Positions 3,154 through 43,800 of a DNA stretch of 64,000 nucleotides are shown here, piece after piece (the stretch's first letter is position 1; every line of letters starts with the position of its first letter). A model generated the notes under the pieces. The model made no database searches, was not told where the DNA came from, and saw nothing but the letters and a program-made list of their open reading frames with translations. A program made the position numbers and the translations under genes. Source of the stretch: Bolinopsis microptera (lineage: Eukaryota > Ctenophora > Tentaculata > Lobata > Bolinopsidae); the NCBI RefSeq assembly GCF_026151205.1, contig NC_087079.1, forward strand, positions 12,824,635 to 12,888,634. The letters are read 5' to 3'.

Positions 3154-6105
3154 TCATGAGATATTTATTCCCTTTCTCTTGGCAACACACGGATTTTTAT
3201 ATAAATATCGGACTTGTTGCTTCTTCTTTTCGATATAATTTACACCCTCTATTTTTGCTAAAACTATATTTGACACTTCCCAAAAGTTGCCTGTGTCTAC
3301 TAAATTATTAGTCTTTTTAAATTCTTCTAGATTAATTTTAAAATCAATAACAGACACTGAATTTCTAACAAAAGATGGCAATTTATTCCAAAAGCTGATA
3401 ACACGCTCTGATAAAAAATTATTAGACAAGGTTTTAATATTTCTATCAATATTGTTAGATTTAGTGCTAACAATTTTATCTCCCGATCTACTTAAATTGA
3501 AAATATCTTTTCCATACTCAACCAATCCATTTACAATTTTGTAGGCTTCAATCAAATCTCCTCTAACCCGTCTCTCTGCGAGTGTTGTAATCTGTAAGGC
3601 ATCCAACCTTTCACTGTAAGGAAGTGTTCCAATATCATCAATAAGGCGTGTGAACCTTCTCTGGACATTTTCCAGTTCAATGATAGTAGCCCAATTCCCA
3701 TGGCAGGCAGGTGGAGACCACAACTGAGCACAATACTCCAAGTGGGGTCTTATTATAGTTTTATAAACATTTCTCATTACATTAATTTCTCTTACAATGA
3801 GATTCCTTGTAACCCATGCAATCATACTGTTTGCTTTACTAATACAACTTTTAATATGTTTCGACCATTTCAAATCTGAAGAAGTTAAAACTCCAAGATC
3901 TTTCTCTGCTTCAATACATTCAAGTGTAACACCACTAAATACATATTCTTGAAGGGGATTTTCATTAAATGGAACATGCATTATTTTGCATTTGCTAGGA
4001 TTAAACTTTAACAGCCACACATTTTGCCAGTTTTGCAAGCTTTCTAACATATTGAAAGTGCTTTCAGTGTCATTGGCATCCATAATAACTTTAAGATCAT
4101 CTGCAAACAGTTTTGATATACCATTAATACAATCAGGCAAGTCATTGATAAAAATGACAAACAATAAAGGACCTAAAACAGACCCTTGTGGGACGCCTGA
4201 TAAAACATCACGAAGGTAGGAATATGCTCCACCAACAAATGTCTTAAATCTTCTTCCAGATAAAAAGTCTTTCACAATATCTAAAGTGTTACCACTTATA
4301 CCCAAATTTCTCATTTTTGTAAGTAGTCTATGATGTGGAACACTATCAAATGCTTTACAAAAATCTAAGTAAAACACATCTACGGGTGCACCATCTTCTA
4401 ATAGTTCGATGATACATTCTACACTCTCTAATAGATTAGATAAACAAGATTTACCTTCTACAAATCCATGCTGGTTTGGATTTATCTTCTTACTAACAAA
4501 ACTCATAATATGCCTCCTTACTAATTTTTCATATAATTTACATAAAATGCATGTAAGTGACACTGGCCTGTAATTTAGGGCATCTTTCCGACTACCCTTT
4601 TTATAAAGAGATGTAACATTTGCTGTCTTCCACTGTTCTGGAATTTTCCCACTTGAAGCACATGTTTGAAATAATTTAGTCACAGCAGAAACAAAACTTG
4701 AATTATGTTCAAGTTCTTTTAATAATTTAGGATGAATGCCATCTGGCCCTTTACTTTTACTAATATTAATTCTTTTCAGTTCTCTGCCAACATCATCCAT
4801 TGTTATCTCAATATTTTCAATGTGTAACTCATCCGCAATAAAATAACATTCTCTGTTCAAAGGTCCATCTGGTTCTTTGACAAAAACTGAAGCAAAAGCA
4901 TCAGCCAATACTTCGGCAGTTTCAAAATTACTTTTGGTCAAAGATCCGTCCGGTTTTTCCAGGGATGATACACAACTTTTTAACACTCTTTTCCCTCTTA
5001 AATATGCATAAAATGGCTTTGTATTATATTTCATACACTGTGTAATTTTTCTTTCATAATTAACTTTACACTTAAATGAATTACTATCAAACTGTCCTTG
5101 TTGGTTCAGTGCAACATTAAGATTTTCAGAAGAAGGATTATTATCAAAAATATACCAACATTTATCTGTCTTTTTCCTGCATCTTTTTAAGGATGAATTT
5201 GCCCAAGGCTCACATTTAAAGTTCTTTTCCGTCGGAACTATATCAGATACTAAGTTAAGCTTTGAGTGTAACTCACTCCACATATCTTCAGAAGTTAAAG
5301 TACCCTCACTAAAAGACCAGTCAATTTCAGCTGATCTGTGTAACAATTCTTTGCCAGAGACTTTTCCCCATAACTTTCTAGGCTCCTTTGCAGCCTCATC
5401 ATCTTGCTTACTGTTACTAAGACTTAGATTTAATTCTACATTAAAACAAACATGATCGCTCTTCCCCAAGGGGGAGACAATCATTACTTCATTGACAATA
5501 GCTTCGTTTGTAGAGAGAACCTGATCTAGTGTACTCTCTTGAAGTTTACCGCTGACAACTCTACGTCTGGTAACTTCATCTGTGATATACCAAACCAAGC
5601 CATTGTCTTGTACACATTCCATAAAATTCTTTTCTATAATTAAACCCTTATTACTTGTTCCTAAAGGAGCATTAACAGTTCCACTAAGCCAAGATACATT
5701 TGGTAAATTTAAATCTCCAACTAGGATTGATTCAACATTAAAAACAGCTAGTTTTGCAATCATTTTGGTCATCGCATTGTTCTGCGCTTTAGAAAGAGAC
5801 ATTGATCTATAAATACATGCAATATTTACCCTACCAATGTTGCTATCGAATTCAACAGCAATCGAATCAGTGACCCTAAACCAATCTATGACAACTGGGT
5901 TCAAAGAGTCTTTAATATAAATAATACAGCCTCCACCACTACTAACAGAACTTTCTCCTACTTCTTCATTAACTGTAAAATCTCTATCTTTTCTAAATAT
6001 TTTGAAACCAGGTATGCTAATTTCAGCATCAATAATTTCATTGTTAAAATGAGTTTCATTTATGCAGAGAACATAAGGACTATAGAATGTAGTGTAAATT
6101 TCTCA
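3154..6105 (-). CDS. LINE ORF2: APE endonuclease + reverse transcriptase (5'-truncated)
   Basis: This is an uninterrupted frame of more than 980 codons. It begins in the endonuclease domain (YVLCINETHF at about 6060, then GGGCIIYIKDS and VGDLNLPNVSW) and continues into a full RT: YRPVSLTCILCKLYEKLVR, HGFVEGKSCLSNLL, DFCKAFDSVPH, SGVPQGSVLGPLLF and the catalytic LFADDLKV. The ATG-less start near 5904 seen by simple ORF calling is not real; in-frame codons run to a stop near 6108, where another element interrupts. The catalytic residues look intact, but the protein lacks the first part of the endonuclease and any ORF1. It is therefore a recent but truncated copy and probably not autonomous. Confidence 0.85.
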
Positions 6106-10319: not shown

Positions 10320-13210
10320 AATCATAATTAAATGCCATTAATCATACACATTTTCTTCTAAAGAAATTCCGTAAAAAGAAGGATAAGAGAGACAATGGAA
10401 ATTGCAATAAATGTGGTACATGTAGCAAATGTATAAAGTGTAATGAGGCCTGGGATTGCTACAAGATTCAGAGAAATATTAGAAATAAATTAGCTAAAAC
10501 CTGCAAAAAGGCTAATGTAATCGATGATCTACAAGTTAAAAGTGCCAAGAATGATCTTAAAGGGATATGGAAAACTATCAAACTGGCACCAAATATGACC
10601 CCTGGTACAACTAATTGTCAAACTATCAATGAGAATGATTCTGAGCTATTTAACTTTCATTTTGCGAATGTTGGATCAAGATTACAAAATCAGGCCCCCA
10701 GTATTGAAAGAGTTAGTTTTACTGATTTTTTACCTCCTAGAACTTCTAACATCTCAATTGATAGATTCCAAGAAATAAATGAAACTGATATCCTAATGTA
10801 TGTCGAAACGCTCAAGAATGACAAGGCCTCATATGACGATGTGCCTCTATTTTTACTTAAGCAAGCTGTACCACACATAGTTGAACCACTGACCCATATT
10901 GTCAATTTGAGCCTTAATACAGGTGTTGTACCAACCCTTTGTAAAAAAGCTAGAGTAACTCCCATCCATAAGGCATGAATGAAAGATGATCCTAATAATT
11001 ACAGGCCAATATCCATCCTTCCACTTATAGGAAAACTTATAGAATACTTTGTCGGCAAGCAACTCACTGATTACATGGAAGAGAACAAACTTTTCATCCG
11101 GCATCAATATGGCTTTCGGAAAAATCACTCCACAACTTATTTGATGTACGATCTGATGGACGAAATATATATGAGTAAATCTTATAAGTAAGTCTTATAA
11201 ACCAGGAATCATCTTTCTTGATCTTAAGAAGGCCTTTGACACAGTGAATCATGAAATATTGCTTCAAAAATTGGCATATTATGGAATTGGTGGCATTGCT
11301 TTAACCTGGTTTAAGAACTTCTTATCTTGTAGATATCAATGCACAAGGATCAATGGCAAACTAAGTTCATTTTTAGAAGTTCTGAGTGGTGTACCACAAG
11401 GAAGCATCATTGGGCCTATGTTATTTAGTATCTTCATAAATGACATCATTTATGCCTGTAACCTATCTAAGCCCTTTCTATTTGCAGATGATGGTGCACT
11501 ATTCTTTGATCAAACCTGCAGAAGCACATTTATAAACATGAAAATAGAACTTATGACAATCTTTAAATGGCTCAGTGTTAATAAATTATCACTCAATGAA
11601 AAGAAGACTGAATTCCTATTGTTTGATTCTGTTGATCAAGATGATGAATTAACCATTGAATGTAATGAGGTAACTTTCACAATCAAGGAGTGCAAAGAGA
11701 CAAAATATCTTGGCCTCATTCTAGATAGTAAATTAAACTTCAAAAGCCATGTAGATTATATTATTAGGAAGGTCATGAAGAGAATTGGTGCCATGTATAG
11801 AAGCAAAGCACTGCTACCCATTAAATATAGGAAAATGTTTGCCAATGCACTCATGTTGCCACAATTCGATTATTTAGACACGATCTATTGTAGAGCTGGC
11901 AAGACAAAACTTGCTGAACTTGACACTCTGTACAAAAAGGTAGCCAAAATAGCTCTCAACGTTCCACAAACAGAGAGCAGCCTTAATGTTTATAGAGACA
12001 TGAAATGGTTACCACTCCATCTTAGACGACAACTCCATCTGTCAAATTATATGTTTAGAATCATCCATGACAATTGTCCTACAAACTTTATGAACAAATT
12101 TAGTTACATATCAGGAGGTAGTAGGAGCGGCGAAAGCTGCAACCTATATGTTAATAGATCAACATCACATAAAAACTTTCAATACTTGGGGGCAAAATGT
12201 CGGAATAATGTTCCAACAGATCTACGAAATCTGCCCGATGTTAAAAGCTTAAGTGATTCGTATAAGAAACAGCTACTCTCATCTATAACAACAGACCCTA
12301 ATTACACCGTCGACAATTCATATGACAAATTTTACACTGCAATCATAGTCGACGATAACTAAGTATCTTCTAATTCTTTTAAATCTGAGGCATATATAAT
12401 TTATGTCGAAAGGATATTCCCTTTTTGACCACCTTACCATTCTGATTGATTTTGCACATGACTGACATGTTTTAACTGGAGAAGGGATTCGCACAGTGGT
12501 AGTTTTATAAACCACTTTTAATTTATTGACCTATTATACCTAGTGGTAGTTTTATAGACCACATTTAATTTATTAACTTATCATACTTAGTATTTATTTT
12601 TGGTGACTGTATCACCCAGTTTTAACATTTGATAATTGTACAGTTTATTGACGACACATTGACTGAATGTTATTTTATATTCTAATTTATATTCTAGATA
12701 TTTTATTTATTTTTCAACAGACGACAACTTCCTGTTTTTTCTTCTATATTAGTTACTCATATCTCTTGTACAGACTGTTTTACAAGGACATGGACAGATG
12801 ATACTCACATTAGGCATTCATTATTGCATCTAAATTATTTCACTTGCATTAGGTTTAGAAATTTATTCTCTGGTTAACAGATTTCAAATGTTTAATCAAT
12901 TTGTAGTATGACAGTAAGGTTTATAAGAAGTTATTTAATTTTGCTTGGGCTATTATATTGACTATTGAGGTTTAATGATGATATGGAATTTGAATTCTAT
13001 ATAAATTTACACTATGTGGTTTGGGCATTTTGCATAGTAAATATGATTACTACTCCTATATATCATATTATTTGATTGGTATTCGATTTCTGATTATTTC
13101 TTAGGAATATGATTATTATATCTCAATTTGGCTTTAGGTAGGGTGCCCCGCTAAAAGAACTGGATTCTTCCAGGAAGCATCCCGTGCACAGACCTTGGTC
13201 TACATATAAT
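10320..13210 (+). mobile_element. Degraded CR1/L2-like LINE
   Basis: A plus-strand non-LTR element without an endonuclease. Coding traces start near 10,360 with a Cys-rich stretch (CNKCGTCSKCIKC) and a WDCYKIQRNIRNKL block, the usual lead-in to the RT. The RT spans 10,595-12,362. The about 850-bp AT-rich 3' UTR ends near 13,200 with a CCGTGCACAGACCTTGGTCT block followed by AT dinucleotides. It is 5'-truncated and mutated: a stop at 10,976 and a frame change near 11,190. Confidence 0.75.
10595..12362 (+). pseudogene. LINE reverse transcriptase (stop + frameshift)
   Basis: The protein is readable in three pieces. 10,595-10,978 holds the fingers region ending RVTPIHKA, with TGA next. 10,979-11,191 has NNYRPISILPLIGKLIE and QYGFRKNHSTT. 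11,205-12,362 has IFLDLKKAFDTVNHE, SGVPQGSIIGPMLF, the catalytic FADDGALFF and a thumb region. The frame is lost near 11,180-11,200, where AGTAAATCTTATAA is followed by a near-identical copy, a 14-bp tandem duplication that shifts the frame by two. Catalytic Asp-Asp is preserved, so decay is recent, but the copy cannot make an intact RT. Confidence 0.85.
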
Positions 13211-31800: not shown

Positions 31801-34800
31801 ACAAAAGTAAGTTTTCAAACATAGAAATTTTTCTTATAAAGGATTTTTGTAGCTCTATATAATATTAACCCTATAAAGCGCTATAAAACGTTGTTCCCAG
31901 AGGATAAAGCGAAGGCTGATCAAAAAGCCAAAGAAGAGGAAGAATCTAAGAAAAAGGAAGAGGAAGAGAAGGATAAGGATAAGGATAAGGATAAGGAAGA
32001 AGAGAAGGAGGAAGAAATAACTGAAGAGGTTTTGGAGGAAGAGTTCAAGAAACTGAATATCGAGGAGGAAGATGATGATGGTATGTGGCTTCAGTATAAT
32101 ATTGAATCAGTAGTTGCTTGCCAATTGTCCTTCTTCATTTACCTTATCTGGTGTTATTTCATCATTGCATGGTTTAAGTAATTATCTCAGATGAGGAGGA
32201 AGAGGAGATTGTTGTAACGGAGACGACACAAAACGCCAACAACAAAGAGGACCCTGATGGGTTTGGAACCAGCACTATTACTATCAGTAATAAGGCTATG
32301 ATGGAGAGTTTCATTGCCAAACTCTCCAATATTAGCAACCGTGATCTTGTTAACGAGGTGATTATTGGGCTGTTAAGAATTCTGTACAGTTTTAGGACGA
32401 GACATTTTAGGAATGAGAATCCAATGTTAGTGACCTTTTGTATTATCTATTATTGTATCTTAGGTTGCACAAGAGTTCTGTTTGAAGTTGAACACCAAAA
32501 GTAACCGAAAGAAGCTAGTGAGGGCACTGTACGGTGTATCAAGAAACAGGTTTTTTAGAATTGACACTTCCACGCTCTTTTGCTAAGGGGTCGTTCACAC
32601 ATTACGTAATCAGCTGAGGAGGGGGGGGGGGGGTTTCCAAATGATTACGTTAATGTAATTTTGACACAATAGCTATGTGTAAAACTGATTACGGAGCGGG
32701 GGGGGGGGGGGGGAAAAATGTTCCAAAAAGTGACTGCGTAATATGTGAACGACCCCTAAGAAGAAATATTGTGTTCTACTACCCGCTTGTGAGCTGTTCA
32801 CAGTGAACAACACAACATATTTCACTCGTCCTAGTCTTTAATTTTAATTCATCAGGTTAGATCTGTTGCCTTTCCACGGCCGCCTAGTCAGAACTCTGTC
32901 CCCTATCTTACCTGATATCCCAACGGACTTGTTCACCCTTCTGAAGAAAGAGTTTATCTATCATGTAAGATAATATTGAACAGTTTATCTAACCATATTT
33001 CTTTAAAACCCAGTTTTGAGAACATAGACTTAATCTTAACGTGGCACGAGGAAGGCTAAAGGGTCTACTATAGATTTTTGTGGAACGCGCGGTGACGCTG
33101 CTATACACAAATGCTCTTTTGTCGATTTTGAAGTTTTCTTTCGCGCCGCGCGCACGTATATTATTTTCACATTTTTTGAGGAATTCAGACAAAGCTTGTT
33201 TCAACTTTCAAGTCTGATCAATTCCGCAATTAATTGAATGCCATGTTCCGCAATGTTGTTCATGAAGCACTTTCACTTCGTGTAATGATAGAATTAAAGT
33301 AAAAACTAACTGAGTAAACAATTCGTAAATCCCAAATTCTCAGTTAAGGAAGAAAGATCAGAATAACCTTGAGACAAAAGTGAAGAATATCCGATTTATT
33401 GGGGAACTCTGCAAATTTGAGATGTGCGAGAATTCGGATGCTCTCTGGTGCCTACGAGTTTTGCTAGGTAACTACCATCGTATTTAGTTCACCCAATTTA
33501 ATGTGATACATAGTCTACTGAAATTGAGTTCCTTGTTAGGGCCATAGCATTTGATATCATCATGAATCAGATATTAATAACAGTTCATACATCATCATTT
33601 ATCCTGCTGAATTGATCAGACAGTGAAATTTGATTGATTTGAAACTTTTACAAATAGTACATTATACAATACAGCAAAGAGAATTAAAAATATACGACAT
33701 TATTATCATGAGGCATTAGTAGGGTAAAAGTTGTAGTCCATATTGTATAAATACTAAAAGCATGGTTAAGTGGTACAAGTTCTGGGGGTATACGTATTAC
33801 AAGTAATAGTTCTACTCCCAGACTCACTAACACCACCTCCATCTAAACACACAAATGTATCTAAAACACGCAAATTTAGAATTATCAAAATAAATACATA
33901 ATGTATCCATGACCTGACTCATATTGCGCCAAAAATTGCGCGCGTATCATCACACAGCGATTAAAAGCAAGATTACAGTCGGATATAAAGTTTGCGTAAT
34001 CCAGTTAAGTATATTAACTGAGGACTGCACCAGGGTCAAATCATGGTGACAGAACGTAAATGTTATTTAATATTATTTAATTTGACCAAAACCCATAATC
34101 ATGGGTAGAGTGAACCGCTGCCAGTGTCTCTCTTTTCCAAACAAAAGAAAATGATATTAATTTGAGGAACCGTCCGCAAATGCAAATTGATACCGAGAAT
34201 GAAATCGGTCGCTCGCTTTTCCCATTCAATAAGCTTTATTACAATACGTAAGCCGTGAATGAATGGGAAAAGCGAGCGACCGATTTCATTCTCGGTATCA
34301 ATTTGCATTTGCGGACGGTTCCTCAAATTAATATCATTTTCTTTTGTTTGGAAAAGAGAGACACTGGCAGCGGTTCACTCTACCCATGATTATGGGTTTT
34401 GGTCAAATATCATCTCTTTTTGACTATAATGTCAGGATAATTTACACAGTCGAAACTTAATAAGGAGGTAATTTCAACGATTTCGAAATTTTACCTTTGA
34501 AAACGTTTCCTTGTGTTTAGGTAGGCATATCTGTCAATAACAGACTGAATATAGCACTTTTTACTCATTCAAGTTGGCATTAAATTCATATATAATGCCA
34601 TTTTAATATCGTGGGAAAGCAGAATATATTCGAAATCACGAATGAGCAAAATTCTCACCTTTCGCACGTGCAAACTTTGAGCGGACGTTGCGTGCGCATA
34701 AAATATTGAATCACCATAAATTTTTGCATAGTGTTATTTAATATATAGTTTGATAAGCATGAAAAGTTTCAGAAGATTTCAAAAAGAACTTGGATCACAA

Positions 34801-37800
34801 CGGGACTCCAAAGTTGGTAAAAATCGTGAAAATAACAATTTTTAGTGATTTTAGCTATTTTAAATGAATTTGGGCGTGTCCCCACGTGTGCAACTTTTCG
34901 ATTTTCAACTTTAAAACTAGCCTATAACACAATTTAGACCTTTAGGAAGCAAAATTGAGCTCCACAACCCAAGGGATGGCCCAACACCAGAGAATACTAA
35001 TTCACAACTTTTGTGTTTTTATAAAATTATTCTTCAAAAAAGCACAAACTTCAATAGCGAATATCTTTATGAAGGAGCAAGGTAGGAAAACTTTCCGGTA
35101 GATTTTCAGAATGCTTGAACAATTATCTGAGATGAAAATGTCCTCAGATTTTGAATAAAATTACTCCTTAATGCTTTAAAATCGATTTGAAAAGTTGTTA
35201 TTTTGTCAAAAATCAAGTTTTAAAAACACTTAAATTGATGACGTCATCAAGTGATGATGATGACGATAAATTATTTTTCGATATAATGTAAACTAAAGTA
35301 TAAACAATTATCTTTAAAACCTGTGGTTCGAAATGACTGTATCTTTTATACTTTTGAATCTACGGACACTTAAATGTAGGCTACAATTTACTGCAAAAGC
35401 GTCTATACATATATACTTATATATATACATATATAGCTTCACGACAATCTGTTGTAAAACAGGGGTTCCAGAAAACCCACTTCCCGATACTCCTGCAACA
35501 TGAAATTTTTTTTACAGTCGATTTGGACAAGGTCTAGACGCTCTGCAAAGTTTCAGATCTCTAACTCGATTTTAACATGGTTTTTAAGGCACCTGAATAT
35601 GGCGATTTTGGGTTTTTTACCTAATTTCGTATAACATGCTGGCGCGTATTTTGCGCAAATTTCTTAAAAACCTCCACATAACTATTTCTTATTCCTGTCA
35701 TCTTTAACATCGAATTAGAATGTTTTGAACTTAAATATACCTGCTGAACTACTTTCGATGAGTCTTAATGCCTGGAAAACAATAAAGGGGATATAATAGT
35801 ATAGGGGGTACATAGTGTTGTGAATATAAGGGCAACGGTTATGCTTGCCAGCATTGTGATAGATTTCTTTTTATATTATAGTTGTTATATTCAGTATCGT
35901 GACCGATCTATCAGTGGCGGGGGCCCACATATAAATATCATTTGCACTCATTAACTTAGTCAGGGTCTGTCAATTTGTCCCAAAAGTGTTTTGCCAGGTT
36001 TGCCTTAAAAGTTCCGGCATCACTTATCTCTTTAAGGTCAGTTGGTAGGTCATTCCAGACACTGTGTGTTCTGAAGAAGAAGCTTCTCTTAAAGGAGTGA
36101 GCTTTTGCTTCCACAGTACACTTCAGGGAAAGGTGGTCGTGTCTGTTCTGTCGCCTCTGGTTGATATCAGGCATTTGAGATGTATCAACTTCATTATATC
36201 TCGAGGGTTGCCTTATGTTTGAACGCAACCTACCCTGTTCACTGGTTGTTATCGGGGTTAAATAAGGTGGGAGCTTCAGAACAGATTGATCATTGTATAT
36301 CTGATGGAATAATAGTAAGTCTGTGTATTCAAACTTCAGCTCCATTGGCAACATGTCTAGCTCTCTTAATCGAGCCAAGTATTCTAAGTCATTATAGTGA
36401 TGATCCTGTTCGCCAAGGATCCACTTAACTGCTCTGCGCTGAATGTTTTCAACTTTGTTATTCAAGACAACACTTGTTGGTCTCCAGACAACACTGCAAT
36501 TTTCGAAAAGGCTCCTAACCAGCGCTAGATAGAATGCCCGTTTTTGTTTACGGTCGTTAATAAACCGTAGAGTTCTTTTCATTAGACCTAGACGAGAACT
36601 AGCTTTCGTACAAAGGTTGACTATGTTCTCCTCCCACTTAAGGTCAGTTCTAACAAAGACCCCAAGGTCTTTTTCACTCTGGACGAAGTCTAGTGCCGTT
36701 CCATCTAGGGTATAGACAAAGAGCTGGAAGGGGAAAAAACTCAAAATTCCCTTTTCACTCATTTTGCTAGATATAGAGAGCACCTTGCATTTATTTGGGT
36801 GAAACTTCATTTTGTTTCTTACTGCCCAGCAATGCAGGGCGTCTATGTCTGCTTGTAGGATCTCATGGTCTCTCCAGCCCGTGATTTTACGCCATATTTT
36901 GGTGTCATCAGCGTATAGGGCTATCTTTGTACCTTCACTTACGCATTCTGACATGTCGTTAATAAAGAGTACAAAGAACAGAGGTCCTAAAATGGAGCCT
37001 TGGGGAACCCCAGATTCAACATTCTTAAGTTCTGAGTGGGATCCCCCAATTATAACACACTGTTTGCGGTCTTTAAGATAGTTCATAATGAACTTCAACA
37101 GTGTACCATTAATTTCAAATTCCGATTTTAATTTCTTTAGGATGACATCATGGTTAACTGAGTCAAAGGCCTTGGCAAAGTCAAAGTATACCACATCAGT
37201 TCTGACATTATCGTTGATAGACAGAGAGAGACAGTCTATATACCCGACCATTTGTGTAGTACAAGACCTCTGAGGAAGAAAACCATGTTGGTTGTCATGT
37301 ATTTTATGCTGGCATTTTGCCAACAGTTCATCTCTCACAATTTTTTCAAAAATTTTCATTACAAGGCTGGTGAGAGAGATTGGCCGATAATTTTCAACTA
37401 GAGTTTTGGGGCCTTTCTTATGCACAGGTACTACGTTAGCCAATTTCCACTCAGATGGTATCTGACCTATGTTATATGAGATTTTAAAAAGGCTCGAGAG
37501 TGGATATGCAATACTATCTCTACAGTTCTTTAAAATTTTGCCATGGATACCATCTGGACCAGCAGCTTTATTAACATTGACATCTTTTAGAATTTTTCGG
37601 ATTCTGCTGGTACTGAACTCAATGTCGTTTACTGAGTCATTACTATAATCAATATCAACATCATAATTACTCGCTTCGGAAAACTGTGCAGCAAAATATT
37701 CATTGAACATTTCAGCTTGGTCTAAGTGATTGTTTCTAAATCTGCCGTTATAGTTTACTGTTCCTGGTATGCGAGTAGATTTTGATGTCGATTTGACATG

Positions 37801-40800
37801 TTTCCAGAATTTCTTTGATATAAGAGCTGGATCATCATCATCATTCAAATTTGATATCATTTTTTGGTCGACCAAATTTTGAAAATCTTTTCTACATTGT
37901 GAGAACTTTTCATAGTCCTCAGCTAGGCATGATCTTTTAGATTTGACTCGTAGTTTTTCTTTTTTGAGACACAGCTGATAAGTGTCAGAGTCAAACCAGG
38001 GTGGCTGATCCTTATCTGATATCGTAATAGTTGGGATTCGGTTGTGTATGTGATGGAACAGGATTTTCTTAAAACGGAACCATCCTGTTTCTGCATCACA
38101 GTTAAGGTGATCATCCCATCTAACTGATTTCAGATCATTGTTCAGGCCGATCCAGTCTGCTTTTTTGTAATTTAAGATTTTTCGTTTGGTGACCTTCTTT
38201 CTAAACTTCATTTTAGCACTAAAAGTTATTCCAAAGTGATCTGAGGAGCATATCTCATTTTTCCCCAGGACCGCCAAATTTTCAACAACACTTATCATAT
38301 TACAGAAGAGAAGATCGAGGACCTTCCCTTTATCATGAGTGGGTTGGTTTATCATTTGTGTTAAGCCTAGGTCATTAAACAGATCTATAAAACGGCCACC
38401 AAGAAGTGTGGGGGACACACCGTCTGACCAGTTAACTTCAGGTAGATTGAAGTCCCCAACTACAAAGTGGGCCTTAAACTTTCTCCGTCCTACCACATTT
38501 CTGAGGTGTTTCTCAATTTCATTAAAATTATTTTCACCAAGGGTGCCAACTCTGTAGCAGGCAGTTATGCAGTAGCATGAGTTGTTTGATTTTAGGCTGA
38601 CTGAGATCATTTCAGCCCTAGAGCTGACATCAATCTTGTCATTTTCAATACTGATGCCAGTCTTGACTGCAATAAGGACTCCGCCCCCTTCCTTCGAAAC
38701 TTAATTGGGTTATCAGGATCCGGGGGGTGGGATCTTTTGGATCTATCCTTCCGATATATCTTGTAGATGCTATCAGGGAGGATCTCATTTTCCAGGTGCT
38801 CTTTTGAAAGCCAAGTCTCAGTCAGAACAATAACATCAGGCTTGTCTTCATAGATCTTAGATTGGAGCTCTAGTAGTTTACCAGCATCAAGCGGCATGTT
38901 TTTAGATGCTAGGCCACTAAAGGGGACAAGCCCTCTCAAATTTTGGTACATTACCTTTAGATGACTGAGGTTATTGTTATCAACTGGACCTGGGTTAAGT
39001 ATGCTTGTATTACAGATAACAAGCAAAACTAAGTTCAGAATGGTCGTCCAGATGGTGAACATGTTACTTAGGAACTGATGTCCACTACACTTAGCGGAAG
39101 AGTAACGTCTGGGACAACCATACTTCACTATCCATAGGGCTATTCCATTTTGTTTCTTTGAATAGATGATCATTAGGACTACAAGATTTGCACTGTTCAT
39201 AAGGCAGTCCCAGTCATTGGTCAGGTGTAGTCCGATCTTGTACGAGCGATGCATACGAAATGTTTGGTCTGAGTATTCACTTGCTGTTTCAATGGCCCCC
39301 GCCAATAACAGACAGATCATATACACATATACAACAATCACTACTCCATAAATCATCTTTAAAATAGCACTTTTCTCTATAGTGGTAATTGAATCTATAT
39401 TTAATTTAGCATTGCATTTGACTTTGGGAGAGTATAGACCAATCACTGTTCTGTGTTGTAAAAACGTGACTCCCATAAATTAGTTTAAAACTCAAAGTTA
39501 AATGGAGACTGGAAAATATGTACTGAATTATACTCTGTTAAAGAAGCAAGAAGTTAATGAATTAAAATATTGTCAATTAATAAATATGGGAACAAATATG
39601 AGAGCATTGTTAAGCTATAATGTTCGTTAAAAATGAAAGAGTTCTCTGAATTCTATAAGTTGAACATGTTACAAGATGACTACCTAGGTTGGTTAGCAAC
39701 GCCAATAAGAACTTTAGCTAACACACTGGTTCCAACAGGATTAAGATGGATACCATCCCTGTTAAACATATTAAAATCTAAAAGCCACATAGTAGGTGTC
39801 TTCTTTAGGAAAAAAGAGAAAAAGTCAACAAATCTTATACTTTCTTTCTTACACATCTCACTTAATAGGTCATTAAACTTATGCATATTTCTAATATGTG
39901 TAAGATAACTTGCCTTCCTAGGGACAAGTGAAAAGAAATTAATCTTAGCTGCAGGAAATACCTGTTTTGTTAGGATTATAAGGTCATTAATGTCTTCAAA
40001 TATGCGTTTTATGTCAGAGTCTACAATCAAATTTTCAACATCATTTCCCCCGACTTGAAGGAACACAGTGGAAACATTAGATGTATTAAATTGCTTGGCA
40101 CACTTTTCAACTTCGTTATAAATGTCACAAGCGTGTGCTCCAGACCGGGAGATAACTTTAAAAATTTTTCCACGCCTGGAAAGTGTTTCAGTTTTCAAGC
40201 TCTTGACGAGGGAGCTGCCAAACACAAAGGTATCAGGGTATGTGGCATCTTTGGAGGTGCTGGTTGCAGGGGAGGTTTTCGGTTCTGCAGAGGAGGGGAG
40301 GAGGATGGGGGAGGAGGATGGGGGAGGAGAATGGATAGCAGGAGGGGCTTCTTTAGGTGGGAGCAGACGTCGGAAGGTGACACTGTAACGGACTCCCCTT
40401 TCTTTCTGTACATCTTTGTCTCCAGCAAGTATTTCATGGTAAAAAGATTGCTGGAAACCAGGCAACATCGTGAATATGCTCCCGGGAGTAAGAGTAAGGT
40501 ACTTGACGGATTTCTTTTTGTCAAGGGAAATGTTCATTTTCCGAGTTGCACCAATCGAGAGTGTTGATATTGGTGCACCTGAATCGAGGCCTGCTTCATC
40601 ATCCTTGTGGGGAGGAAGGCAACACAGATATGAGCTGTACTTGTTAACTAACATGGAGTTATACTCTGTTCCTAGTGTTAAGTTAACAGTCTTCAGCAGT
40701 TTATCCATGATGGTGTTGGGTTGGATAGAGACTGGTGAGAGGGCAGCAGATCTTCGATTGTATGCGTATCGTTGGCTGCCGTACAGGAAGGTATCTGGGC

Positions 40801-43800
40801 TTAAATTTGTTCCAGACCTGCTGTAATTGATATTCTTGACGTGGCCAAGGACTTCCTCAACCAGAGGCTCACTAAGGGGGTCATGTCGAAGATTATAGTG
40901 AAGGAGCAGCGGAGATGGAGAAGGTGGGGAAGAGGATGATGGACTCGATGATTCCTGTATTTTGGGTACTGGAGAGGGTGCAGAATCAAGTAGCGTGTTG
41001 GTATATTGGAGAAGGTTCTCCAATGTATTCTGCACCTTTCTAAGTTCTTCGTTAGCGAGATTTCCCAGTTGGGGAACTATAAGGTCTTTCAGTTTATCAA
41101 GTTCCAAAACAATGAATGATTTATAAAAGTTAAGGACGGGAAACGTGATCTCCGTCTTCTCCGACGACAAGACAGATCATAAACACAGCTTAAATCAAAT
41201 GATTTAGTTTGACTGACAAAATCTTTCTTTACAAATGCCACCATTTTTCTGTATGTTATAGACTACTTTATTTACTTACTGTTTGATTTGTTAGAAACAG
41301 ATCGCACATGGCAGACAATACAACATCGGTTCCTTTCAACTTCGGTGTGAAGTATTTCAACTCAAAGTACCAGTCGAACATTGAGGTCCTCTTGAGAGAT
41401 GGTGAGAAGATCAAAGTCAATTCCGTAATTCTGTCTATTAACAGCCCCTATCTTGAAGAAATAATCGAGAAGCAAAAGTTAAAAATCATAGAAATGGATG
41501 GGTTCGATCCGATCGTGTGTCGAGGATTTTTGAGGAGTTTATACACAGTTGACTTATCAATGCTAGACAGGGGCTCCTTTAGACAAGTCAGCAGAATGTC
41601 ATACACGTTTCAAGTAACTTGGATGAAACTAAAGTGCTTCGAGTACTTCAACTGTTTGATGAATGCGGTCCCCAACATCGGCAATAATGGCATTCCTACA
41701 GAGGACGACAGATTCCTGCTGGAGGAGGCCATCGCAGCCAAACCGTTTGATGAAGACAAACAATACTTGAACGCTCTAGTTCAATGGAAATCCAGTAATT
41801 TATGCAATAATGATGTTTCCTGTATGGGGAATGTGCTAGAAGACTTGGGAAGCCTACATGTGGATCAACTTGACTTCTTTATTCGTGTTGCTAATAAATG
41901 CGAACGAGTCTTGCCGGGGTCGAAGCAGAGCCGCCGGTGCAGGAATCTCACAATCAAAGAAATCAAAAAAGAGTGTTCAACCGTCATTGTAGAAAAATTA
42001 ACCGCACATCTTATGAAAATAGAGAAATTGGATACCAAAACAAGATACGTATTAGAAAATCTGGACTTTGGTGGTATTACTTCCAAGTTTAAAGCGAACC
42101 GTAACTATCCAGGGCGACAAGACATCGTACGGGTATCGTATCAATCGTATCCTCTCGTGGGCCGTCCAGGCTTCTCTTCTAAAATAAAAGACAATTTTAA
42201 AATAGCTGCGACCACGATGTTTCAAAGCATAATGAACCTCAAAGAGATTTCCAACGACGATATGAAGATGACGCTTAAACGTTTCATGAGTTTGGGAAAC
42301 TAATCATAAACTGCACTGATAGCGTTCTGTAATTGTGGAAATCTGTTAAACAATAAAAATATTGATAATTTAATTCAGTTTACTACTATTTAGTTGAAAA
42401 TTGTCCTGTTTACTCATGATTTGAACAACACTCTAAGGAAATTGTGCTATATGCAGTTTACAGAGCATAATCAATGATGAATACGTTATATTAATGCACA
42501 TATGTTTTACTTTGATCTCACGACGAATTTGGACACCTTGAATATAAAATGTTATTCTGAACACATTATAATATTCCATATTCCGGCTCAGATGTTTAAT
42601 TAACTTAGCCCAAATATGGGGGATCATTTATTCCGTTAATTTGCGATATTTCGTCATTGACCCGAAAAGTTCGAACATAATATCATATGGTTTAATTGGT
42701 GGCACCATACTAAGAAAGAAGGAATCATGTTTTAAGATCACAAATCGTTGGTATTATATTGTTTTTGGAAATTATAAGGATGCCTCATTTCAGAGCAGTT
42801 CACACATCACAACATTGAGATAGCCTGCAGTCTGGTGGAATGTTGCGGAAGATACCTCTTCAGATCTCCGGAAACTCATCTGAAAACTAACCATCTTCTT
42901 GTAAGAAACTGCCGTCCTTCTGAAGAATCAGTATATGTATCAATATTAAATAACAGCTACACGTGAAAGTAACTGAAATTTCCACAATTTATAAACAGAT
43001 AACTCAAATCTAACCTCGCACCTCTCCAAGGACCAAATGATGCGGAAGAAAGCTGTTCACAACTTGGATACAAGGCAGATTACTATGGTTGAGAATGCGT
43101 ACTATTATTGTAACCCACCTGATCGTGTGGCTTATGTTAAGGTACTGGAAGCTAGCTTAATGAATATTGAATCAAGATTAACAATTAGTTACTAGTTAGT
43201 GTTGTTCTCAGTTGTTGTTATTATGTATGTTCTTATGTAACGGAGCTCTTGATTAGATGAGATTTGTGCCATGAAAGATGATCATAATAAGAGTAAAACT
43301 CAGTGAAATTAAAGTTGTTCCTTTTCAGAAAGTTAGACCTCCACTTCACGAGTACATAAGGAAACTTTTGATCAAAGACCTCAACAAGAATAACATCGAG
43401 AAAATACTCCGACAGTTCAGAAAACTCCCTTGGCAAGACGATGAAGTAAGTACCCAGTCTGACATTAAATCTTACAAACATGAAGGGGAAATTTCTTATA
43501 TATTGTTGGAATTTCCCAAACATAAAATACGTCCCTGGCTGCACCTGGCACCACCCCACACTTCACATACCATTCACATACCAGGCTAACATAACGTCTA
43601 CCGTAGAATTACCACGGGGTACGTCTGGTATTAACCTGGTATTAACCTGGTATTAACCTGGTATTAACCACGGGGTACGTCTGGTATTCCTTGTCTTCCG
43701 TTTCACCCCGTCTGGTAGCTTTACTCTGACCCCGTTCCGCGTCTATCTTGTGAATTATTCTATTTAGTAAAGTCTGGAGGGTCTACTGTGGCAGTCTACC

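Follow-up and report, generated by a model that had tools for sequence, protein, structure and literature searches.

Can a retrotransposon carry its own nucleic-acid dioxygenase, and if so, what would it be for? This question is raised by a stretch of 64,000 nucleotides from the genome of the ctenophore Bolinopsis microptera (contig NC_087079.1, positions 12,824,635 to 12,888,634; this whole stretch is called the window hereafter). It contains a copy of a long interspersed nuclear element (LINE) whose first open reading frame (ORF1) appears to encode an AlkB-type dioxygenase together with an SGNH esterase. A preliminary description of the locus had read the two as a fusion in one frame, directly upstream of an ORF2 for an apurinic/apyrimidinic (AP)-type endonuclease (APE) and reverse transcriptase (RT), and had suggested that the element brings along its own eraser or repair enzyme. 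The fusion proved to be real and the suggestion is supported in part; below we weigh what the fusion may do.

The ORF1 protein

An open frame of 496 codons runs from 41170 to 39680 on the minus strand of the window, and Pfam profiles recognize both parts of its product. 2OG-FeII_Oxy_2 (PF13532) matches residues 133-267 (E = 1.7e-12; 48.4 bits at a curated cut-off of 31.2) and Lipase_GDSL residues 362-486 with 23.8 bits, just above its cut-off of 23.6; Lipase_GDSL_2 reaches 28.0 bits and stays under its cut-off of 32.9. For the AlkB part a profile search of the PDB concurs, and a confident AlphaFold model has the double-stranded β-helix of the AlkB fold. The functional residues (H188, D190, H245, R261, R267, S320, D472 and H475) lie exactly where the preliminary description had placed them, and a loose HxDxE..R..H..RxxxxxR pattern arose in 2 of 20,000 shuffles of the protein. 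The position of ORF1 directly upstream of ORF2 was likewise borne out, ORF2 beginning 200 bp downstream.

The frame is uninterrupted, as had been described, but it is not element-encoded over its whole length. Aligned with other copies, the element begins at 41106, which falls within the ORF1 start codon; residues 1-21 thus derive from the flank, and the element's own share amounts to about 475 amino acids (residues 22-496). At the start-codon site five other copies read ATGGAACTT, as against TTGGAACTT in the window copy. AlphaFold predicts helices at residues 11-35 (the first part being flank) and 40-62, with a predicted local distance difference test (pLDDT) of about 77-92, and those within residues 23-62 probably serve multimerization. 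The AlkB domain that follows is basic (computed isoelectric point 9.27).

In the SGNH part, S320, G344 and N376 are present in 74 of 74 aligned sequences and H475 in 68, with four gaps. The catalytic triad of Ser320, Asp472 and His475 exists in this copy as claimed, but Asp472 is not a conserved position: the 74 sequences have D in 24, S in 30, R in 8, G in 7 and a gap in 5. When a profile of these sequences was compared with the PDB, the best SGNH match was 4c1b from zebrafish ZfL2-1 (1.9e-10). According to the accessible parts of two reports (PMC3905857, PMC4120745), the Type IV ORF1 of ZfL2-1 resembles that of the window in having a C-terminal SGNH esterase, a helical N-terminus and an APE-RT ORF2 behind it. 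By contrast, the protein described here has an AlkB domain between helices and esterase, and its triad Asp is variable. The transposon-specific H191 and S228 of ZfL2-1 (PMC3905857, accessible part) align to Q372 and F413, with S414 adjacent, in an alignment that is itself weak (E = 0.035).

Kinship of the AlkB domain

Judged by sequence profile, the ORF1 AlkB is closest to ALKBH2 and ALKBH3, nearer than to ALKBH5 or FTO. The 74-sequence profile found ALKBH2 at 1.8e-20, ALKBH3 at 5.6e-19 and E. coli AlkB at 0.008, and no chain named ALKBH1, ALKBH5, ALKBH8 or FTO was among the 44 PDB matches listed. Human ALKBH2 and ALKBH3 share with the LINE domain the fold, the iron and 2-oxoglutarate (2OG) residues and an HxDDE motif; they differ in that identity is about 22% and that the LINE domain sits in a transposon protein. 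H188, D190, H245 and R267 occur in 74 of 74 aligned sequences and R261 in 73, and E192 of the HxDxE motif is invariant as well (74/74), while mean column identity among window-type homologues is only 34%. In AlkB and ALKBH2 the acid of HxDxE touches the base, and ALKBH5 is not known to have it.

Occurrence in LINEs

The ORF1 protein has 91 matches in the B. microptera genome, a single copy in some cases yielding more than one. PF13532 has at least 151, most in open frames of 330-880 amino acids; they include at least three host ALKBH genes (L119-L121) and several in frames of Helitron size. The sample that we read comprises five ORF1 families found through protein matches and eight loci of seven families (L111-L118), picked from the PF13532 matches by hand for differing frame lengths, not at random. 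Pfam finds PF13532 in ORF1 of L010, L021, L111, L112 and L114-L118, a weak 2OG-FeII_Oxy match only in L017 and L024, and none in L023; a profile of the window-type AlkB matches all 14 LINE ORF1s of this genome that it was given (45-254 bits).

RVT_1 was present in ORF2 at all 12 hand-picked LINE loci tested (L012, L017, L021, L024, L111, L112 and L113-L118). An endonuclease match stood beside it at ten, the pieces tested from L113 and L118 comprising the RT only; L023, where the ORF2 frame is broken, and L122 were left out of this test. In the L117 family 46 ORF2 copies were listed; counted by hand, 15 of them are preceded at 863-865 bp, in the same orientation, by one of the PF13532 (AlkB) matches listed, and the other 31 by none of those listed. 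Copies L010, L011 and L013 of the window family are 98.7-99.5% identical to L012 across about 6.18 kb including both ORFs (blastn). An AlkB-esterase gene that happens to adjoin a LINE, one outcome by which the preliminary description would have been overturned, might be suspected from the inactive state of the window copy itself, but the 12 loci with RVT_1, the spacing in the L117 family and the identity of whole copies rule out a chance neighbour or one-off, to which we give practically no credence.

The window-type SGNH profile does not recognize SGNH in L112, L113 and L116 and barely does so in L115, and Pfam finds none in L112 and L115; in these four the domain was called from blocks read by eye. 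The ORF1s at L115:3723-5501 (-) and L118:3571-5499 (-) have a PHD-like finger before AlkB and SGNH, at 17.0 and 16.9 bits and thus under the Pfam cut-off of 24.

Beyond this genome we found 73 window-type and 162 PHD-type homologues, 120 of the latter being listed. One, P0116, carries an organism name: annotated as a hypothetical protein and coming from the ctenophore Mnemiopsis leidyi, it has matches to a PHD-like finger and to AlkB, and its model is without the first iron ligand. These homologues, which bear on a search proposed in the preliminary description, are known as proteins. Viral contigs gave two weak matches, to the SGNH part only; bacterial and archaeal genomes gave 85, and the 80 that were kept cover the AlkB part only, judged by their ranges.

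Two further LINEs were seen in the window. An RT fragment at 11175-12362 (+) is 97% identical to the ORF2 of L117 and represents a second AlkB-LINE family, without ORF1 here. An ORF2 (APE, RT) of a more distant family lies at 3154-6102 (-); in the frames read upstream of it no AlkB ORF1 was found, and the AlkB profiles have no further match anywhere in the window.

The same domain in Helitrons

L028:2783-9901 (+), continuing into L124, is one frame of 3388 amino acids that contains an SGNH match (26.7 bits, under the cut-off of 32.9), AlkB, DUF6570, Helitron_like_N (3.5e-22) and, in the overlapping continuation, PIF1 (2.4e-22). Among Helitron-type homologues elsewhere, four of six (P0074-P0077) carry the full set with GDSL_2, and P0077 was verified as one protein; L025 and L125 were called Helitrons by likeness, their helicase part not being in view. 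The Helitron AlkBs nest among those of window-type LINEs (support 97/92), and a single clade of LINE AlkBs excluding Helitrons was rejected by an approximately unbiased (AU) test (p = 0.0025), which was made after an earlier tree had already shown the nesting. Capture from LINE to Helitron would be the simplest direction.

The SGNH domain of the Helitrons may be separate in origin from their AlkB. Because its likeness to the window type is weak (36.5 and 38.1 bits in the two that have it, compared with 162-165 for AlkB) and because it lies on the other side of AlkB, it was perhaps acquired separately. Mobilization of an SGNH gene by a Helitron has been described in platyfish (PMC4021074, accessible part); the tie to SGNH is common to both cases, and here a single frame joins SGNH, AlkB, Helitron_like_N and PIF1.

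Age and exchange of the ORF1

In the AlkB tree the domains of transposable elements (TEs) group in a single clade (97/92), apart from the AlkBs of the host and of bacteria. Two host ALKBH3-like genes adjoin it (fork 89/87), and a host ALKBH2-like gene falls among the bacterial ones. Ten of the bacterial and archaeal matches served as outgroup; F10, the longest branch, was left out (an earlier tree with it gave 82/90 for the TE group), metagenomic P entries were labelled LINE from their AlkB-SGNH order, and P0078 was set with the Helitrons by similarity only. A recent capture of a host gene was considered and rejected, the host ALKBH2- and ALKBH3-like genes (L119, about 4e-60; L120, about 1e-39; PDB matches) being separate loci outside the TE clade.

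AlkB ORF1s look old in LINEs, because the AlkB and RT trees concur in outline: F1, F2, F4 and F5 group together, F3, F6, F8 and F11 go with F9, F10 and F12, and F7 (L112/L113) stands apart. F7, whose RT matches R2 better than L1 (5.2e-29 vs 1.7e-21), appears as a long branch of unsure placement; the RT of the window family matches L1 slightly better than R2 (1.1e-18 vs 6e-17). Between L111 and L114 the ORF2s are 98% identical and the ORF1 proteins 54%; identity at the DNA level changes abruptly at L111:2037, a point past the ORF1 stop (1759) and ahead of the start of the ORF2 frame (2054). It looks as if ORF1 can move between elements, swapped like a cassette.

Constraint on the active site

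Seven AlkB residues (H188, D190, E192, R210, H245, R261 and R267) were scored. All seven are kept in 206 of 216 domains, seven of the others being incomplete and three changed. By group, retention was 72/73 in window-type homologues, 112/120 in the PHD type (six incomplete, two changed), 5/6 in the Helitron type (one incomplete), and 14/14 and 3/3 in the LINEs and Helitrons of this genome. A comparison of substitution rates across copies, also suggested in the preliminary description, gave dN/dS values for AlkB of 0.050 (the F7 pair), 0.148 (F6/F8) and 0.173 (two Helitrons). These three were the usable ones among six between-family pairs, F3/F6 (0.107, pS 0.745) lying at the edge of saturation and two being saturated. 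Six copies of the window family gave pN/pS ratios of 0.51 for AlkB, 0.25 for SGNH, 0.68 for the N-terminus and 0.69 for the linker, values that rest on few, non-independent changes and are too shallow to decide. The constraint on the active site implies that the AlkB domain is probably catalytic.

What the dioxygenase may do

Methylation of the N1 position of adenine (m1A) and the N3 position of cytosine (m3C) blocks reverse transcription, whereas that of the N6 position of adenine (m6A) hardly does, and enzymes of the ALKBH2/3 type reverse m1A and m3C. Helitrons pass through single-stranded DNA and have no RNA template. The protein is the ORF1 of a CR1/L2-like LINE and combines N-terminal helices, an ALKBH2/ALKBH3-type dioxygenase and an SGNH esterase. 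We propose that the AlkB most likely works as an enzyme in the ribonucleoprotein (RNP) of the element. Around target-primed reverse transcription it would oxidatively strip alkyl groups (m1A, m3C and the like) that block copying from the single-stranded RNA template and the cDNA, and it would probably also hold nucleic acid; the esterase most likely would make lipid or membrane contacts, as proposed for ZfL2-1 ORF1. A LINE RNP contains one long RNA that has to be copied and a Helitron has a single-stranded DNA stage, and clearance of alkyl groups would aid both. The assignment to AlkB by Pfam, by the PDB profile with ALKBH2 and ALKBH3 foremost and by fold, the constraint on the active site, the invariance of E192, the presence of the same domain in Helitrons, the basic charge of the domain and the want of a known RNA-binding fold in other esterase ORF1s (PMC3905857) speak for this proposal, whose chance of being correct we put at about even. 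We infer that the AlkB is active, that its target is nucleic acid of the element itself and that its substrate is of the m1A/m3C type rather than m6A.

Several observations weigh against such a repair function. The substrate is not readable from the fold, because ALKBH3 and ALKBH2 are tied in the comparison of the predicted AlkB fold with solved structures, with FTO (18.9) and ALKBH6 (19.1) not far behind. In F2, F4 and F5 (L017, L023, L024) the AlkB has diverged so far that PF13532 no longer recognizes it at E 0.1, and F4 and F5 have N171 or Y178 changed. Within the window family pN/pS is higher for AlkB than for SGNH, on few changes, and the set of 216 domains was gathered by similarity and is biased toward intact active sites.

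The eraser half of the earlier interpretation would have the AlkB strip regulatory marks set by the host (m6A or m1A on RNA, N6-methyladenine (6mA) on DNA) and thereby spare the element recognition or silencing. A constrained active site would fit this, and an AlkB encoded by a Ty3/gypsy element of orchids demethylates m6A in vitro (PMC9289625, accessible part). The orchid domain, however, is ALKBH5-like, in contrast to the ALKBH2/3 match found here; ALKBH5 is said, in the accessible part of one report, to suppress human L1 retrotransposition (PMC7873242); and the presence of AlkB in Helitrons is less easily explained by removal of marks from RNA. We therefore favour repair and regard erasure as unlikely, if worth keeping in mind. 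Esterase ORF1s are described as being without a known structural RNA-binding domain (PMC3905857, accessible part), a role that the AlkB could fill as well. That it is kept mainly as a basic module for binding or chaperoning nucleic acid, with catalysis secondary or lost, seems distinctly unlikely to us, since iron and 2OG ligands need not then stay fixed, yet the seven scored residues persist nearly throughout. Certain AlkB homologues have tRNA or proteins as substrates, and the target might likewise lie outside the element, for instance a host protein, an immune signal, or RNA of the host such as tRNA; but in studied LINEs the ORF1 protein binds the RNA of its element in cis, and the solved structures nearest to this domain are those of nucleic-acid repair enzymes, and we see no more than a slight chance for such a target.

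A wider view is that AlkB-bearing mobile elements of animals form an old and widespread guild, comprising several deep LINE lineages and, by capture from LINEs, Helitrons, in which the AlkB ORF1 is a traded cassette used for counter-defence against host methylation or for single-strand repair. We offer this tentatively and consider it somewhat doubtful.

Relation to known systems

The accessible part of a classification of ORF1 proteins distinguishes five types and contains neither 'AlkB' nor 'dioxygenase' (Metcalfe and Casane, PMC4120745); by its account, esterase ORF1s were found in just two vertebrate groups, both within the Jockey superfamily. Schneider et al. (PMC3905857, likewise in part) place the esterase in many animal phyla and also in RTE, RTEX and Penelope-like elements. 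A review of giant transposons mentions GDSL in Terminons and, in the part accessible, does not name AlkB (PMC6431247). No report of AlkB in a LINE or Helitron was found among the papers listed by searches of the accessible literature, which did not extend to Repbase and most subscription papers, and an earlier annotation may for that reason have gone unnoticed. On this basis we rate the AlkB-SGNH ORF1 as a new ORF1 type, and the Helitron fusion as new too.

The nearest parallel is the orchid Ty3/gypsy element, also a retroelement encoding an AlkB-family domain; according to the accessible text it is a long terminal repeat (LTR) element with a recent, ALKBH5-like domain in a separate ORF, whereas the domain described here is ALKBH2/3-like, fused into a LINE ORF1 and present in many families (PMC9289625). 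The same text quotes AlkB in plant RNA viruses of the Alpha- and Betaflexiviridae and the Closteroviridae. These are RNA replicons with an AlkB of their own, thought to repair RNA; the replicon is a different one, without SGNH, and the likeness is one of description only.

The window copy and its surroundings

The window copy (Table 1) is a fossil of a recently active family, because it is truncated at the ORF1 start codon, has a frameshifted ORF2 and carries an insertion of 1.8 kb, while other copies have open frames. Full length in this family is about 6.19 kb. A frameshift between 38607 and 38700 splits ORF2 in two; in L012, L013 and L015 it is a single frame of 1174 amino acids, and that of L012 matches Exo_endo_phos_2, Exo_endo_phos and RVT_1, RNase H being absent from its Pfam matches at E 0.1. 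An AP-type endonuclease, an RT without RNase H, and short tandem repeats at the 3' end without a clear target-site duplication (the best flank matches are 4-10 bases at seven copies of the window family) are traits of CR1/L2 elements of the Jockey superfamily; the label CR1/L2-like is to be read with R2 and human L1 as the only named references of the RT comparison.

Table 1. Features of the LINE copy in the window.
Feature	Position	Strand	Basis
LINE copy, truncated at its 5' end within the ORF1 start codon and split by the insertion 34082-35858	33628..41106	-	blastn against other copies, copy ends
ORF1, element-encoded part (residues 22-496 and stop; own start codon lost)	39680..41106	-	frame reading, copy ends
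N-terminal helical region, residues 23-62, probable multimerization helices	40985..41104	-	AlphaFold
AlkB-type 2OG-Fe(II) dioxygenase domain, residues 86-275	40346..40915	-	Pfam, PDB profile, AlphaFold, alignment
AlkB domain sites: iron ligands H188, D190, H245; 2OG pair R261, R267; E192	within 40346..40915	-	
Pro/Ser-rich disordered linker, residues 276-311	40238..40345	-	pLDDT mostly under 50 at 280-306
SGNH esterase domain, residues 312-496: S320, G344, N376, H475; D472 not conserved	39683..40237	-	Pfam, PDB profile, AlphaFold, alignment
ORF2, first open piece: N-terminal hydrophobic stretch, NPGP, endonuclease start	38607..39479	-	homologous to N-terminal part of the 1174-amino-acid ORF2 of L012
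ORF2, second open piece: remaining AP-type endonuclease and RT	35956..38700	-	Exo_endo_phos_2 7.8e-9, RVT_1 1.8e-28 (Pfam)
1777-bp insertion in the 3' untranslated region, ending in a long hairpin	34082..35858	.	gap in alignment to L012; hairpin by eye
LINE 3' end with short CAAAT-like repeat tail	33628..33650	-	copy ends

By eye, the insertion ends in a long, near-perfect inverted repeat, the hairpin lying at about 34081-34407. An NPGP motif follows the hydrophobic start of ORF2 at about 38980-39020 (-) and is also seen in L126 and L127; we take it to resemble 2A peptides, but the residues that usually precede it differ. About 200 bp past the truncated 5' end of the LINE, an open frame with a BTB domain lies on the opposite strand (41308-42303, +).

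Implications

No part of a LINE is less well understood than its ORF1 protein. A conserved nucleic-acid dioxygenase within one leads to a testable claim, namely that retrotransposition is limited by alkyl or methyl groups on the RNA template or the cDNA and that elements have evolved to remove them. The AlkB domain would also offer an explanation of how esterase ORF1s make contact with nucleic acid, and it is a LINE domain that is found inside Helitrons. For studies of 6mA and m6A erasers it matters that a predicted 'AlkB' gene of an invertebrate can be the ORF1 of a transposon; some of the homologues found here bear the source name 'alkylated DNA repair dioxygenase AlkB'. Taken together, the data suggest that these elements rid their own copies of damage or marks ahead of insertion.

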